A stretch of DNA of 64,000 nucleotides, taken from contig NZ_LMJB01000005.1 in NCBI RefSeq assembly GCF_001429765.1, positions 498,549-562,548 on the forward strand, given 5' to 3'. The DNA is from Flavobacterium sp. Root901 (GTDB taxonomy: Bacteria; Bacteroidota; Bacteroidia; Flavobacteriales; Flavobacteriaceae). Position 1 is the stretch's first letter. Each line of letters begins with the position of its first letter. The notes beneath the pieces are model-generated. The model had not been told where the DNA came from, ran no database searches, and was given only the letters and a program-made list of their open reading frames with translations. Below are positions 8,994 through 48,175 of the stretch, one piece after another. The position numbers and the translations under genes are program-made.

Positions 8994-9045
8994 CAAAGAC
9001 GCGAAGCCGCAAAGTTTAAATATATTTTGCGGCTTCGCGTCTTTG
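8994..9045. repeat. Perfect 20-bp inverted repeat, AAAGACGCGAAGCCGC type
   Basis: The arms at 8994-9013 and 9026-9045 are exact reverse complements (CAAAGACGCGAAGCCGCAAA) with a 12-base A/T loop. Its GC-rich stem stands out in the A/T-rich spacer between the LD-carboxypeptidase and yraN. No ORF or T tract goes with it, so it is read as a dispersed palindromic repeat and not a classical terminator. Confidence 0.75.
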
Positions 9046-40801: not shown

Positions 40802-41290
40802 ATGGAAAACAAAAAAGTCATCATTCTAGGTTCTTCAAGAAAAAACGGAAACACAACAAGAATTGTAGATAAAATTGCAAAAGAATACAATATTGATGTA
40901 GTGAACCTCAGTGATTATACTATTTCATATTATGATTACGAAAGCAAAAATATAGACGATGATTTTTTGCCTTTAATAAGAGGAATAATTGAAAAGTACG
41001 ACACTTTAATTTTTGCAACTCCTATATATTGGTACAATATGAGTGGGATTATGAAGGTTTTCTTTGATCGTTTTTCAGATTTAATCCGAATTGAAAAAGA
41101 AACCGGAAGAAAACTCAGAGGAAAAAAAATTGGTGTGATATCCAACTCACACGACAACCAGATTGAAGAGAGTTTTTACATTCCGTTTAAAAAAACAGCA
41201 GATTATTTAGGCATGGAATATTTAGGACACGCGCATTTTAATGCCAATGTTTTAAACCAGCCAACAAAAATAGAATTGACATTTATATAA
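40802..41290 (+). CDS. NAD(P)H-dependent FMN reductase/flavodoxin-like protein inserted in the suf operon
   Basis: A 162-residue flavodoxin-fold oxidoreductase: flavin phosphate loop GSSRKNGNTTRIV near the N-terminus and ATPIYWYNMSGIMKVFFDRF, the family's conserved PIYW block. It sits 7 bases after sufB and 14 bases before sufC, on the same strand. That spacing puts it in the suf message. SUF assembly needs electrons, and in other bacteria FADH2 bound by SufBC2D is suggested to supply them; a role here is a tempting inference but unproven. It could equally be a quinone or nitro reductase that was inserted by chance. Confidence 0.8.
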   Translation: MENKKVIILGSSRKNGNTTRIVDKIAKEYNIDVVNLSDYTISYYDYESKNIDDDFLPLIRGIIEKYDTLIFATPIYWYNMSGIMKVFFDRFSDLIRIEKETGRKLRGKKIGVISNSHDNQIEESFYIPFKKTADYLGMEYLGHAHFNANVLNQPTKIELTFI

Positions 41291-41304: not shown

Positions 41305-42051
41305 ATGTTATCAATAAAAAACCTTCACGCCGCAATTGGTGATAAAGAAATCCTAAAAGGAATTAACATAGAAGTAAAAGCTGGTGAAGTACACGCCATT
41401 ATGGGACCAAACGGTTCTGGAAAAAGTACACTTTCGGCTGTTATTGCCGGAAACGAAAACTATGAAGTTACAGACGGAGAAGTTATTCTTGACGGAGAAG
41501 ATCTTGCTGATCTTGCTCCTGAAGAAAGAGCGCACAAAGGTGTTTTCCTTTCTTTTCAATATCCTGTAGAAATTCCAGGAGTTAGCGTTACTAACTTTAT
41601 GAAAACAGCTATTAACGAAACTCGTAAAGCAAACGGTCAGGAAGAAATGCCGGCTAACGAAATGCTGAAAGTAATTCGCGAGAAATCTGAATTGTTAGAA
41701 ATCGACCGTAAATTTTTATCCCGTTCATTAAACGAAGGTTTTTCAGGAGGAGAGAAAAAAAGAAACGAGATTTTCCAAATGGCAATGTTAGAACCAAAAT
41801 TGGCTATTCTTGATGAAACCGATTCTGGTCTTGATATCGATGCTTTAAGAATTGTTGCAAATGGTGTAAATAAACTTAAAAGCGAGAAAAACGCAATTAT
41901 CGTTATTACGCACTACCAACGTTTATTAGATTATATCGTTCCGGATTTCGTTCACGTATTATATAATGGTAGAATCGTAAAATCTGGCGGAAAAGAATTG
42001 GCGTACGAATTAGAAGAAAAAGGATACGACTGGATTAAGGCAGAAAATTAA
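41305..42051 (+). CDS. sufC: Fe-S cluster assembly ATPase SufC
   Basis: A 248-residue ABC-type ATPase that drives cluster assembly with SufB and SufD. Walker A GPNGSGKST, signature FSGGEKKRNEIFQMA, Walker B LAILDETDSGLDIDAL and switch His in VITHYQRLLDYI are all present. The Walker B DETDSGLD form is characteristic of SufC as opposed to transport ATPases. It is followed 76 bases later by the four-helix-bundle cassette. Confidence 0.96.
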   Translation: MLSIKNLHAAIGDKEILKGINIEVKAGEVHAIMGPNGSGKSTLSAVIAGNENYEVTDGEVILDGEDLADLAPEERAHKGVFLSFQYPVEIPGVSVTNFMKTAINETRKANGQEEMPANEMLKVIREKSELLEIDRKFLSRSLNEGFSGGEKKRNEIFQMAMLEPKLAILDETDSGLDIDALRIVANGVNKLKSEKNAIIVITHYQRLLDYIVPDFVHVLYNGRIVKSGGKELAYELEEKGYDWIKAEN

Positions 42052-42054
42052 TTT

Positions 42055-42087
42055 GTTTCATGTTTCATGTTTTTTTAGTTTCAAGTT
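42055..42087 (+). repeat. Left arm of the GTTTCAR cassette
   Basis: Three GTTTCA units (42055-42060, 42062-42067, 42078-42083) ending AGTTTCAAGTT. They are reverse complementary to the repeat after the four-helix-bundle gene (42521-42546). Confidence 0.65.
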
Positions 42088-42127
42088 AAACTACATTTGT
42101 AAGTTTTAACTTAAAATAAAATACGAA

Positions 42128-42517
42128 ATGGCAACAATTAATCGATTTGAGGATTTAGAAATCTGGAAAGAAGCTAGACGATTAGCAAAAGAAGTTCATC
42201 TTATTGCAGTTGAAACAGAATTAAGATCAGATCTCAGATTTAAAAATCAAATAAAAGATTCTTCGGGCTCAGTAATGGATAACATTGCTGAAGGTTTTGA
42301 AAGAGATGGAAATTTAGAGTTTAGACAATTTTTATCTATCGCAAAAGGTTCAGCCGGAGAAACAAGATCTCAGCTATATCGGGTTTTTGATTTTGAATAC
42401 ATTTCAGAAGAAAAATTCGAAGCTTTAAAAAAAGATTACGAAAACCTAAGCGGTAAAATAAAAAACTTTATCACTTATTTAAATAAAAAAGATTTCAAAG
42501 GGAATAAGTTTCAGTAA
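42128..42517 (+). CDS. Four-helix-bundle protein (23S rRNA intervening-sequence/Avd-like)
   Basis: A 129-residue protein of the S23/IVP family (PF05635-like): FEDLEIWKEARRLAKEVH, FKNQIKDSSGSVMDNIAEGFERDGNLEFRQFLSIAKGSAGETRSQLYRVFDF and a final amphipathic helix. Related proteins occur in ORFs inside 23S rRNA intervening sequences and as Avd in diversity-generating retroelements; the function of solo members is not known. It lies between sufC and sufD in the same direction, with inverted GTTTCAR arrays on both sides, which suggests it came in as a cassette. No reverse transcriptase or variable repeat is present nearby, so it is not part of a retroelement here. Confidence 0.85.
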   Translation: MATINRFEDLEIWKEARRLAKEVHLIAVETELRSDLRFKNQIKDSSGSVMDNIAEGFERDGNLEFRQFLSIAKGSAGETRSQLYRVFDFEYISEEKFEALKKDYENLSGKIKNFITYLNKKDFKGNKFQ

Positions 42518-42546
42518 GTAAAACCTGAAACTTGAAACCTGAAACC
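42506..42546 (+). repeat. Right arm of the GTTTCAR cassette, with hairpin at the gene's end
   Basis: TGAAACCTGAAAC-type units (42521-42546) are the reverse complement of the left arm. AAGTTTCAG (42506-42514, overlapping the stop) also pairs with CTGAAACTT (42525-42533), making a local hairpin 19 bases upstream of the sufD start. Confidence 0.65.
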
Positions 42547-42565: not shown

Positions 42566-43882
42566 ATGGATTTAAAAGAAAAATTAGTATCGTCTTTTAT
42601 GGCTTTTGAGGAGCGTGTTGATGTAAATTCAGATTTGCATGATATACGCACGAGTGCTATAAAAAACTTTGAAAATAAAGGTTTTCCAACCAAAAAAGAA
42701 GAAGCGTGGAAATATACATCGTTAAACGCCATTTTAAAAAATGACTTTACGGTTTTTCCAAAGCAGGAAAATGCAATCGAATTTAATCAGGTAAAAAAAT
42801 ACTTTTTACACGAAATAGACACTTATAAATTAGTTTTTATTGATGGTGTTTTCAGTTCGCATTTGTCTTCTACAACACACGACGGAATCGATGTTTGTTT
42901 GATGTCATCAGCATTGACCAAACCAAAATATAAAATGGTCATTGATACCTACTTCAATCAGATTGCAAGCAAAGATGAGAGTTTGACCTCTTTGAATACA
43001 GCTTTTGCAAGTGAAGGCGCTTTTATCAATATCCCAAAGAAGAAAGTTGCCGACAAACCAATCGAGGTTATGTTTTTCTCAACAGGAAATGAAGCAGCAT
43101 TAATGGTTCAGCCAAGAAATTTGATTATTGTGGGCGAAAATTCACATGTTCAGATTATTGAGCGTCACCAAAGTTTGAATGAAAATCCGGTTCTAACAAA
43201 TTCTGTTACAGAGATTTTTGCTCAAAAACGTGCGATTGTTGATTATTACAAAATTCAGAATGATAATAGCGAAGCAAATTTAGTAGACAATACTTATGTG
43301 TCGCAGCAACAGGAAAGTCATGCTTCTGTTCACACATTTTCATTTGGAGGAAACCTGACACGTAACAATTTAAACTTTTATCATTTTGGAGAAAGATTGA
43401 CAAGTACGTTAAACGGAATTTCAATCTTAAATGATAAACAACACGTTGACCATTATACTTTAGTAAACCACGCAACACCAAACTGCGAAAGTTTTCAGGA
43501 CTATAAAGGAATTTTTTCTGATCGTTCGACAGGAGTTTTCAACGGAAAAGTTTTGGTAGAAAAAGAAGCTCAAAAAACAAATGCTTTCCAAAAAAGCAAT
43601 AACATTTTATTGAGTGATAAAGCTACAATCAACGCAAAACCTCAATTAGAGATTTTCGCAGACGACGTAAAATGTTCTCACGGATGTACTGTTGGACAGC
43701 TTGACGAAACAGCAATGTTCTACATGCAGTCACGCGGAATCCCGAAAAAAGAAGCTAAAGCTTTATTGATGTACGCATTCTCAAATGCGGTTATCGAAAG
43801 CATCAAAATACCGGAATTAAAACAAAGAATTACTAAAATCATTGCCATGAAATTGGGCGTGAATTTAGGATTTGATTTGTAG
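42566..43882 (+). CDS. sufD: Fe-S cluster assembly protein SufD
   Basis: A 438-residue paralogue of SufB and third member of the SufBCD complex. N-terminal helical region with ENKGFPTKKEEAWKYTSL, then the right-handed beta-helix core and the conserved C-terminal block FADDVKCSHGCTVGQLDETAMFYMQSRGIPKKEAKALL with the family's cysteine and histidine. It follows the cassette closely and is terminated by a clear hairpin, so sufA-sufB-sufC-sufD is one transcription unit and sufS lies in another. Confidence 0.95.
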   Translation: MDLKEKLVSSFMAFEERVDVNSDLHDIRTSAIKNFENKGFPTKKEEAWKYTSLNAILKNDFTVFPKQENAIEFNQVKKYFLHEIDTYKLVFIDGVFSSHLSSTTHDGIDVCLMSSALTKPKYKMVIDTYFNQIASKDESLTSLNTAFASEGAFINIPKKKVADKPIEVMFFSTGNEAALMVQPRNLIIVGENSHVQIIERHQSLNENPVLTNSVTEIFAQKRAIVDYYKIQNDNSEANLVDNTYVSQQQESHASVHTFSFGGNLTRNNLNFYHFGERLTSTLNGISILNDKQHVDHYTLVNHATPNCESFQDYKGIFSDRSTGVFNGKVLVEKEAQKTNAFQKSNNILLSDKATINAKPQLEIFADDVKCSHGCTVGQLDETAMFYMQSRGIPKKEAKALLMYAFSNAVIESIKIPELKQRITKIIAMKLGVNLGFDL

Positions 43883-43938: not shown

Positions 43939-43945
43939 ATGCAAT

Positions 43946-44023
43946 CCTGCAAGGTTTCCAAAACCTTGTAGGTATTATTATAACCCAAAAACCACACCTA
44001 CAAGGTTTTGGAAACCTTGCAGG
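43946..44023. repeat. Perfect 27-bp inverted repeat with nested palindromes
   Basis: Left arm 43946-43972 (CCTGCAAGGTTTCC...) and right arm 43997-44023 (CCTACAAGGTTTTGG...) are exact reverse complements with a 24-base spacer. Each arm also folds on itself (CAAGGTTT against AAACCTTG). It sits between sufD and the converging serine hydrolase gene, ending 11 bases from that gene's stop, so it could serve as that gene's terminator on the minus strand. Confidence 0.8.
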
Positions 44024-44034
44024 AGCAAACAATA

Positions 44035-47780: not shown

Positions 47781-48104
47781 ATGGAACAAGAAATAGACAC
47801 AAACGAATTAGGTGAATCAATCGTAAGAGTTTTAAAAGGAATTTACGATCCTGAGATACCGGTAGATATTTATGAGTTGGGATTAATTTACGATGTAATG
47901 GTGAATACAGATTATGAAGTAAAAATCCTGATGACATTAACTTCTCCAAATTGTCCGGTTGCTGAAAGTTTACCGAGAGAAGTTGAAGAAAAAGTAAAAG
48001 CAATCGAAAACATTAAAGATGTTGACGTAGAAATTACTTTTGATCCGCCATGGAGCAAGGATTTAATGAGCGAGGAAGCAAAATTAGAATTAGGAATGCT
48101 TTAA
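47781..48104 (+). CDS. SUF-associated DUF59 protein (SufT/PaaD-like)
   Basis: A 107-residue DUF59/MIP18-like protein: SIVRVLKGIYDPEIPVDIYELGLIYDV and the conserved LTSPNCPVAESLP cysteine. Members found next to suf genes are thought to help maturation of Fe-S proteins; SufT is the usual name for related proteins, but this short form is usually called a SUF-system assembly protein. It is preceded directly by a 20-A tract, so there is no ordinary ribosome-binding site in the last 20 bases before the ATG. Confidence 0.88.
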   Translation: MEQEIDTNELGESIVRVLKGIYDPEIPVDIYELGLIYDVMVNTDYEVKILMTLTSPNCPVAESLPREVEEKVKAIENIKDVDVEITFDPPWSKDLMSEEAKLELGML

Positions 48105-48112
48105 AAATATTT

Positions 48113-48164
48113 GTTTCAGGTTTCAAGTTTCAGGTTACGCAACTTGAAACCTAAAACTTGAAAC
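48113..48164 (+). repeat. Solo GTTTCAR palindrome
   Basis: Left half (48113-48136): GTTTCAGGTTTCAAG plus more, units of GTTTCAR at a 7-base step. Right half (48141-48164) is its reverse complement with only transition mismatches, around the 4-base loop ACGC. It resembles the two arms of the four-helix-bundle cassette at 42055-42546 joined without a gene. It lies in the 71-base gap between the DUF59 and DUF2480 genes. Confidence 0.75.
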
Positions 48165-48175
48165 TAACTTTTCAC

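Follow-up and report, generated by a model that had tools for sequence, protein, structure and literature searches.

Partnerships between a bacterial gene and a family of short dispersed repeats are known from the REPIN/RAYT system. The RAYT protein is described as an IS200-like tyrosine transposase, the gene of which is single-copy and vertically inherited (PMC3116915, PMC8049555). The S23 or IVP proteins (PF05635) have been met in other settings: the literature places IVP proteins in rRNA insertions of CPR bacteria (PMC11270868), counts 18 IVP genes in cas loci (PMC3936711) and points out the likeness of PF05635 to Avd (PMC10053308). Heptameric G-rich arrays of the unit GGGAATC number 186 in one Xanthomonas genome, with 70 convergent pairs, and occur also in Nostoc (PMC4692102), and heptads of the unit TAACTGA are found in Beggiatoaceae, Cyanobacteria and Bacteroidetes (PMC4679880). 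A term search of both papers gave no mention of S23, four helix or intervening. PubMed Central full text, a collection outside which most subscription papers and bioRxiv fall, holds few papers on the S23/IVP family and, in the text seen, none linking S23 genes to flanking arrays. S23/IVP genes are widespread in bacteria, and to our knowledge no function has been assigned to them.

The locus treated here lies in a stretch of 64,000 nucleotides of Flavobacterium sp. Root901 (contig NZ_LMJB01000005.1), in the following called the window, and positions are counted from its first letter. The suf gene names are our own assignments from the ORFs. The features are:

41305..42051, plus strand: sufC, upstream neighbour of the element (ORF; anchor in 81 genomes)
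42055..42087, plus strand: left arm, a degenerate GTTTCAR/GTTTCAT array (sequence; similar left arms in relatives)
42128..42517, plus strand: S23-A, the S23/IVP four-helix-bundle gene (PF05635, TIGR02436, structure model, dN/dS)
42525..42545, minus strand: right arm CTGAAAC TTGAAAC CTGAAAC, an inverted GTTTCAR array (sequence)
42566..43882, plus strand: sufD, downstream neighbour of the element (ORF)
48113..48164, no strand: solo GTTTCAR hairpin without a gene, directly 3' of the ORF 47781-48104

The sequence-only reading had described an S23-family gene flanked by inverted GTTTCAR arrays, inserted between sufC and sufD in such a way that sufD stays readable. This is confirmed by the order of the parts: sufC ends at 42051, the S23 ORF of 129 aa follows at 42128-42517 and sufD begins at 42566. 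The cassette thus lies between protein genes and not in a 23S (or 16S) rRNA gene. The description of both arms as GTTTCAR arrays holds fully for the right arm, which has three exact units at 42525-42545, and in part for the left arm (from 42055: GTTTCATGTTTCATGTTTTTTTAGTTTCAAGTT), a degenerate mirror of the right one with two units GTTTCAT instead of GTTTCAR. The best-listed arm pair is 21 nt long with 76% complementarity, and for the window copy the inverted-flank score is 14.0, where the 95th percentile of the controls is 14.65 (12.8 once duplicates are removed). Compared with its shuffles the element RNA gives the better fold (z -4.45); its minimum-energy structure pairs both ends, and the outer helix is missing from the centroid. 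Since the pairing of the window copy itself is modest, the case rests on comparison. An orthologous gene with like arms sits between sufC and sufD in 8 more Flavobacterium genomes, so that the expectation of further GTTTCAR-flanked S23 copies elsewhere in the genus was correct. Arms of this kind in relatives, together with the dispersal of GTTTCARGTTTCAR treated below, raise the cassette above what chance would give.

The solo hairpin at 48113-48164 follows an ORF which we take to be sufT-like (DUF59). The RNA of 48105-48170 gives a fold z of -6.43, and the matching junction holds an AAGTCNN hairpin in two relatives (G015 and G054) where the window has GTTTCAR. We interpret the solo hairpin as a non-autonomous copy of the arms. 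Two other palindromes were seen in the window. The top-scoring short-loop hairpin is a long imperfect palindrome of another family just 3' of sufD (43945-44024; CCTGCAAGGTTTCCAAAACCTTGTAGGT and its mirror), and a strong palindrome at 8994-9045 (CAAAGACGCGAAGCCGCAAAG...) overlaps an ORF of at least 100 aa.

The S23 protein of the window matches PF05635 with an E-value of 3.3e-31 (108.1 bits, curated cut-off 33.8) and the NCBIfam model TIGR02436, named four helix bundle protein, with 97.7 bits (cut-off 24). A Pfam profile search gave no domain besides PF05635, in particular no Y1/HUH tyrosine transposase domain, and NCBIfam gave S23-type models only. The predicted structure of the monomer (pLDDT 90.2) superimposes on the solved S23 protein 2GSC of Xanthomonas with a TM-score of 0.83, and the model thus has the four-helix-bundle fold. 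The match to Avd is weaker, with a TM-score of 0.75 for 4DWL (Foldseek E 0.07) and 0.70 for the Avd-type chains of DGR RNP entries such as 8UB7; sequence identity to the Avd structures is 10-12%, at a Foldseek E of 0.07 or weaker. Among 11 S23-A sequences dN/dS is mostly 0.02-0.13 and at the highest 0.165, in the 52 of 55 pairs with a usable dS, many of which are saturated. By these sequence ratios S23-A is under strong purifying selection, and the decay reported for the Coxiella S23p is rejected for it. In an alignment of 80 S23 sequences, which leaves out the divergent paralogues L012 and L015, the invariant residues are W13, Q41, S48, N52, I53, E55, G56 and E78; Q41, S48, N52, E55 and E78 stay invariant with the set from the own genome that includes these two. 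PADLOC gave one weak match only (LmuC, E 0.008) and PHROGs none. Three RVT_1 matches in the own genome, apparently two genes, lie on C5 outside the window and on C7, and none was found inside the window.

The sequence-only reading of the cassette is too narrow, its arms being one instance of what is seen in the S23 family at large. Inverted flanks above the 95th percentile of the controls are found in 110 of 155 non-redundant S23 genes compared with 6 of 105 neighbour genes (Mann-Whitney p 8e-25), a control pass rate that is about 5% by construction because the percentile is that of neighbouring genes; 45 of the 155 S23 genes fail. When the own-genome set and the set of 81 Flavobacterium genomes are removed, 82 of 121 pass, the GTDB part still containing some Flavobacterium. 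That part comes from a scan over many phyla and consists of the best 80 of 571 confirmed S23 places, so it leans to genes resembling the query. To this were added ten of the GTDB-scan genomes, 12 of 25 matching plasmid records (mostly cyanobacterial), a class-level search around a Thiobacillus genome with a match in 60 of 369 genomes, and 81 Flavobacterium genomes, 74 of them with a match to the window protein. A first flank test covered 177 of 189 loci, 9 being dropped for want of an ORF and 3 for short flanks or N; the 155 are what is left when duplicates are taken out together with 14 loci whose ORF lies off the crude match position, mostly through clipping at contig ends. The result is the same in kind before and after the removal of duplicates.

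The repeat unit differs from S23 gene to S23 gene, and the commonest period is 7. Upstream, the best tandem period is 7 for 82 of the 155 genes and 14 for another 17 (controls 15 and 4 of 105); downstream, it is 7 for 75 genes and 14 for 26 (controls 13 and 12 of 105). Strong periodicity of 6-9 nt is present in 159 of 310 arms, 124 of them at 7, against 22 of 210 control arms; arms of period 7 have a median of about 4.6 units, duplicates kept. With Rfam at gathering thresholds none of the 80 GTDB loci contains rRNA, which makes the family name misleading for them. Many other junctions hold S23 genes, and a cassette unique to suf was rejected as a candidate. With neighbours called as plain ORFs and duplicates removed, S23 genes between two co-directional genes are in sense in 127 cases and antisense in 8 (152 placed genes). 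This bias suits expression from a host operon, and it would also suit an RNA route. The closest match to the Xanthomonas protein of 2GSC in the 369 genomes of the class is 56% identical, with at most 58% over shorter stretches. Three cyanobacterial plasmid S23 genes are found in cas operons. L228 (cas10-S23-cmr3) has inverted arrays, L229 (cas6-S23-cas4) a clear array on the upstream side only and L233 (cas6-S23-cas4) direct instead of inverted arrays; since all three carry short-repeat arrays nearby, S23 may be no more than a passenger in these cas operons.

The own genome (G000) has seven PF05635 genes, all flanked by inverted short arrays when inspected by eye, with a different unit each time. 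Five of the other proteins are 22-34% identical to the window S23 when aligned, and the sixth, L014, has an internal stop codon. In this genome GTTTCARGTTTCAR has 101 exact matches and its reversed control none; with up to one mismatch the figures are 236 and 17, overlapping matches inside a single array being included. In an 864 kb sample of the genome the units of L009, L012 and L013 rank among the 12-mer families that are most over-represented. With one mismatch allowed these units form 11, 18 and 26 clusters (controls 5, 0 and 5); 11, 16 and 21 of the clusters are intergenic, and there are 2, 3 and 5 inverted pairs, each ordered like the arms, in a sample which contains the arms of four S23 genes and counts 1.45 kb twice where the window overlaps C5. 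The 26 clusters, with 21 intergenic and 5 inverted pairs, are those of GTTTCAR, of which at least 8 inverted pairs are among the matches listed for the own genome. The other four units are near background with 4, 3, 0 and 3 clusters (controls 3, 1, 0 and 0), and one of them has an inverted pair. Three listed hairpins of the L012 unit (AGTCTC/AGTTTTC; L016-L035 sample, contig C1) have a loop sequence like AACTTTGACAAAGTT, and this inner repeat is itself over-represented in the sample. Further over-represented families, so far without a link to S23, are TCTCCTTCGTCGAAATGA, CCACAGATTAA, AATTCCAAATTC and AATCTAAAATCT.

The cleanest test of whether a unit and its gene occur together is given by AGTAGYC, which flanks the S23 gene L107 in genome G084: the pattern AGTAGYCAGTAGYCAGT has 135 matches in G084 and none in 9 other S23-bearing genomes, and the reversed control has none. 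The median number of GTTTCAR matches is 143 in the 10 genomes with an intact GTTTCAR-armed S23-A and 2 in the other 71 (p 8e-6). With carriers of relics (see below) added it is 143 in 16 genomes and 2 in the other 65 (p 4e-9), the 6 relic genomes having been added once the counts were known and relics having been sought in 30 genomes only; within those 30 genomes 13 carriers have a median of 143 and 17 non-carriers one of 4 (p 4e-6). These p-values overstate independence, because the carriers mostly belong to one clade. S23-A homologues of 70-81% identity with GTTTAAR arms are found at sufB-sufC in four genomes. Three of these, G043, G047 and G059, have 9, 43 and 31 GTTTAAR matches and 0, 3 and 1 GTTTCAR matches; the fourth, G016, has more GTTTCAR (340) than GTTTAAR (146). 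There are other exceptions. G027 has GTTTCAR arms and just 4 GTTTCAR matches, G042, G075, G068 and G016 have 41-340 GTTTCAR matches, and of their 25 S23 loci the 10 that were read include none with GTTTCAR arms; G007, G022, G036, G064, G070 and G078 have 20-53 GTTTAAR matches, and of their 31 S23 loci the 14 that were read include none with GTTTAAR arms. Most carriers of S23-B have few copies of AAGTCNN, and its reversed control matches GTTTCAG arrays and is hence invalid. As judged from these counts unit and S23 gene go together, with exceptions. G016 has very high counts for three array types, and at C47:83221-84753 two different S23 elements (L359 and L369) lie on either side of sufC, each with its own arms.

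The sufC-sufD junction was surveyed in the own genome and 29 relatives, the 30 that match SufC best, with SufC, SufB and SufD as anchors. S23-A with GTTTCAR arms is present in 7, and in 5 the junction has S23-B or its remnants with AAGTCNN arms, a different S23 which is 42-44% identical in G075, G010 and G057. Solo hairpins are found in 17 genomes (GTTTACA/TTATGAG-type in 9, GTTTAAR in 6, GTTTATA-type in 2), and in one genome the junction is empty (7 nt). The mobility that had been proposed is what this comparison points to, since the junction in relatives holds other elements, solo hairpins or nothing. The same gene at sufC-sufD in all relatives without the arms, named beforehand as a sign against the cassette, was not encountered among the 30 genomes. 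At sufB-sufC a sequence of 123-162 nt in G049, G063, G057, G066, G006, G077 and G060 consists of arm sequence and the 3' end of an S23-A gene; aligned with the intact element of G047 it scores 77-85 where shuffles reach at most 47, and aligned with the element of the window it scores 44-57 where they reach at most 41. In the 123-nt forms the left arm is gone. By its sequence this is a relic of an internally deleted S23 element, and G066 has it in addition to an intact copy at sufC-sufD. The window has an ORF between sufB and sufC (40802-41290), presumably FMN reductase-like in our reading. In relatives its place is taken by different sequence, by S23 elements or by relics, which makes sufB-sufC an insertion hotspot as well. 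At another site GTTTCAR is present in G015 and the L012 unit in the own genome.

G006 and G063, which both keep the S23-A relic at sufB-sufC, are 94% identical with 27 indel events listed, none of which, in the portions displayed, is a clean gain of a GTTTCAR hairpin. The mapped GTTTCAR arrays are common to both except for the left arm of the relic, absent in G006, and no recent insertion was found among them; exact array positions are the same in 63 of 63 cases compared with 92.5% in other intergenic DNA, a very small sample. The relatives compared contain no clean occupied/empty pair at the nucleotide level, and no target-site duplication was read in them. No transposase tied to the arrays and no catalytic domain was identified. 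Some array junctions have unrelated palindromes in relatives. Tolerant pockets therefore exist, and such sites may explain part of the junction pattern.

Three other explanations have to be weighed. The sequence-only reading took the cassette for an operon-borne relative of the rRNA intervening sequences (IVS), the arms of which pair in the suf mRNA into a stem that RNase III cleaves, setting the S23 ORF apart from the message. The resemblance stands up, in that the protein family is shared and the ends are complementary; the fold of the element RNA exceeds its shuffles, S23 genes are mostly in sense, and for the rRNA IVS of Coxiella excision by RNase III has been published (PMC4990558). Excision as the explanation of the element is nevertheless unlikely. 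Solo copies scattered over the genome are not expected from excision out of an mRNA, which leaves the gene-specific units unexplained as well. In the window the arms are short and degenerate, and of the two predicted structures the minimum-energy one shows their pairing and the centroid does not. Processing of the RNA may be incidental, with the arms serving another purpose.

We likewise find it improbable that the S23 proteins are resident RNA-binding regulators with the junction arrays as their binding sites, the arms being autoregulatory and the spread passive. The strong purifying selection on S23-A would fit such regulators, as would the mostly intergenic position of the arrays, their near identity in the very small G006/G063 sample and the translational role which one paper proposes for the TAACTGA heptads (PMC4679880). 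Regulators do not predict that in 110 of 155 cases the arms surround the very gene of the S23 protein, that the same junction has different units or nothing in relatives, or that an internally deleted relic exists. That the arrays are minisatellites or palindromes made by slippage in tolerant intergenic pockets, with the S23 gene as a passive neighbour, can hardly be the explanation. Array length does differ between the near relatives L160 and L161, and some relatives have unrelated palindromes at these sites; but slippage makes direct arrays and not one unit inverted around one gene family, and neither the 110 of 155 against 6 of 105 nor the 135 matches against none in 9 genomes for one unit agrees with it.

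We consider it probable (roughly 0.65) that the window cassette is one copy of a widespread small mobile element, REPIN/RAYT-like, in which the S23 protein propagates its own arrays. The element would consist of one S23/IVP gene bounded by inverted short-tandem-repeat arrays, mostly of period 7 and private to that gene. The gene would probably be read from the host operon. Its protein would most likely recognize its own arrays as folded RNA or as a single-stranded hairpin and be needed to copy array-bounded segments into new intergenic sites. Arms with S23 would be the autonomous form, and solo hairpins and internally deleted relics the non-autonomous form, much as REPINs are to RAYT transposases. 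The chemistry of the copying is an inferred part of the model, and an RNA-based route with a reverse transcriptase acting in trans is a further guess, suggested by the fold kinship with Avd and by the sense bias. The anatomy, the occurrence in many phyla with differing units and the dispersal of several of these units, with some intergenic inverted pairs, are observed. So are the varied or empty junction, the internal-deletion relic, the sense orientation and the purifying selection on S23-A. Against the REPIN/RAYT-like element count the 45 of 155 genes that fail the flank test, the orphan arrays, the four of seven units that are hardly dispersed, and the fact that neither a target duplication nor a catalytic domain nor a recent insertion was found in the material compared.

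Still wider, and held at somewhat less than even odds as one joint proposal, is the idea that S23/IVP proteins are the helpers of a new class of mobile elements with inverted private arrays of about 7 nt. The rRNA IVS, the S23 genes of cas operons and the dispersed heptamer arrays (GGGAATC, TAACTGA) would be members or derivatives of the class, and S23 subunits arranged as a ring may each hold a single repeat of the RNA or single-stranded DNA and may pass the repeat to a reverse transcriptase or a host polymerase. A private inverted array with solo copies for each S23 gene would give S23/IVP a function that can be tested, and a common origin of rRNA intervening sequences, CRISPR-cas S23 genes and the unexplained heptamer arrays becomes possible; the strongly conserved S23 residues await explanation. 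That S23 genes of many bacterial groups share this design, each time with another repeat, suggests a type of mobile DNA that has been overlooked so far and that brings along a helper protein.

Among known systems, the diversity-generating retroelements share with the S23-A model the predicted fold of their Avd; they differ by an adjacent reverse transcriptase, an RVT_1 match being absent from the window. The rRNA IVS, as described in the literature (PMC4990558, PMC11270868), are like the S23 element in protein family, complementary ends and suspected mobility, whereas the S23 element lies between protein genes and its solo arms are dispersed. The GGGAATC arrays of Xanthomonas and the TAACTGA arrays resemble GTTTCAR in being dispersed, mostly intergenic and of 7 nt, with many close inverted pairs in Xanthomonas. 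The cassette is not classed with RAYT, IVS or DGR, since it has no HUH domain, is not in rRNA and has no adjacent reverse transcriptase. According to the literature on REPIN/RAYT, its short inverted doublets are extragenic, each family is tied to a distinctive single-copy gene, and the flanks of the cognate gene carry its repeat family; here too there are dispersed extragenic inverted doublets and a distinctive, single-copy cognate gene flanked by the same repeat. The S23 protein differs from RAYT in matching PF05635 and S23-type models only, with no HUH domain, and the repeat is a tandem array of a unit of about 7 nt enclosing the gene where that of RAYT is a REP palindrome. If the proposal is true, this would be a second and unrelated case of a REPIN/RAYT-type partnership, and such a partnership, with a different protein and different ends, is better supported than the mRNA-processing explanation.
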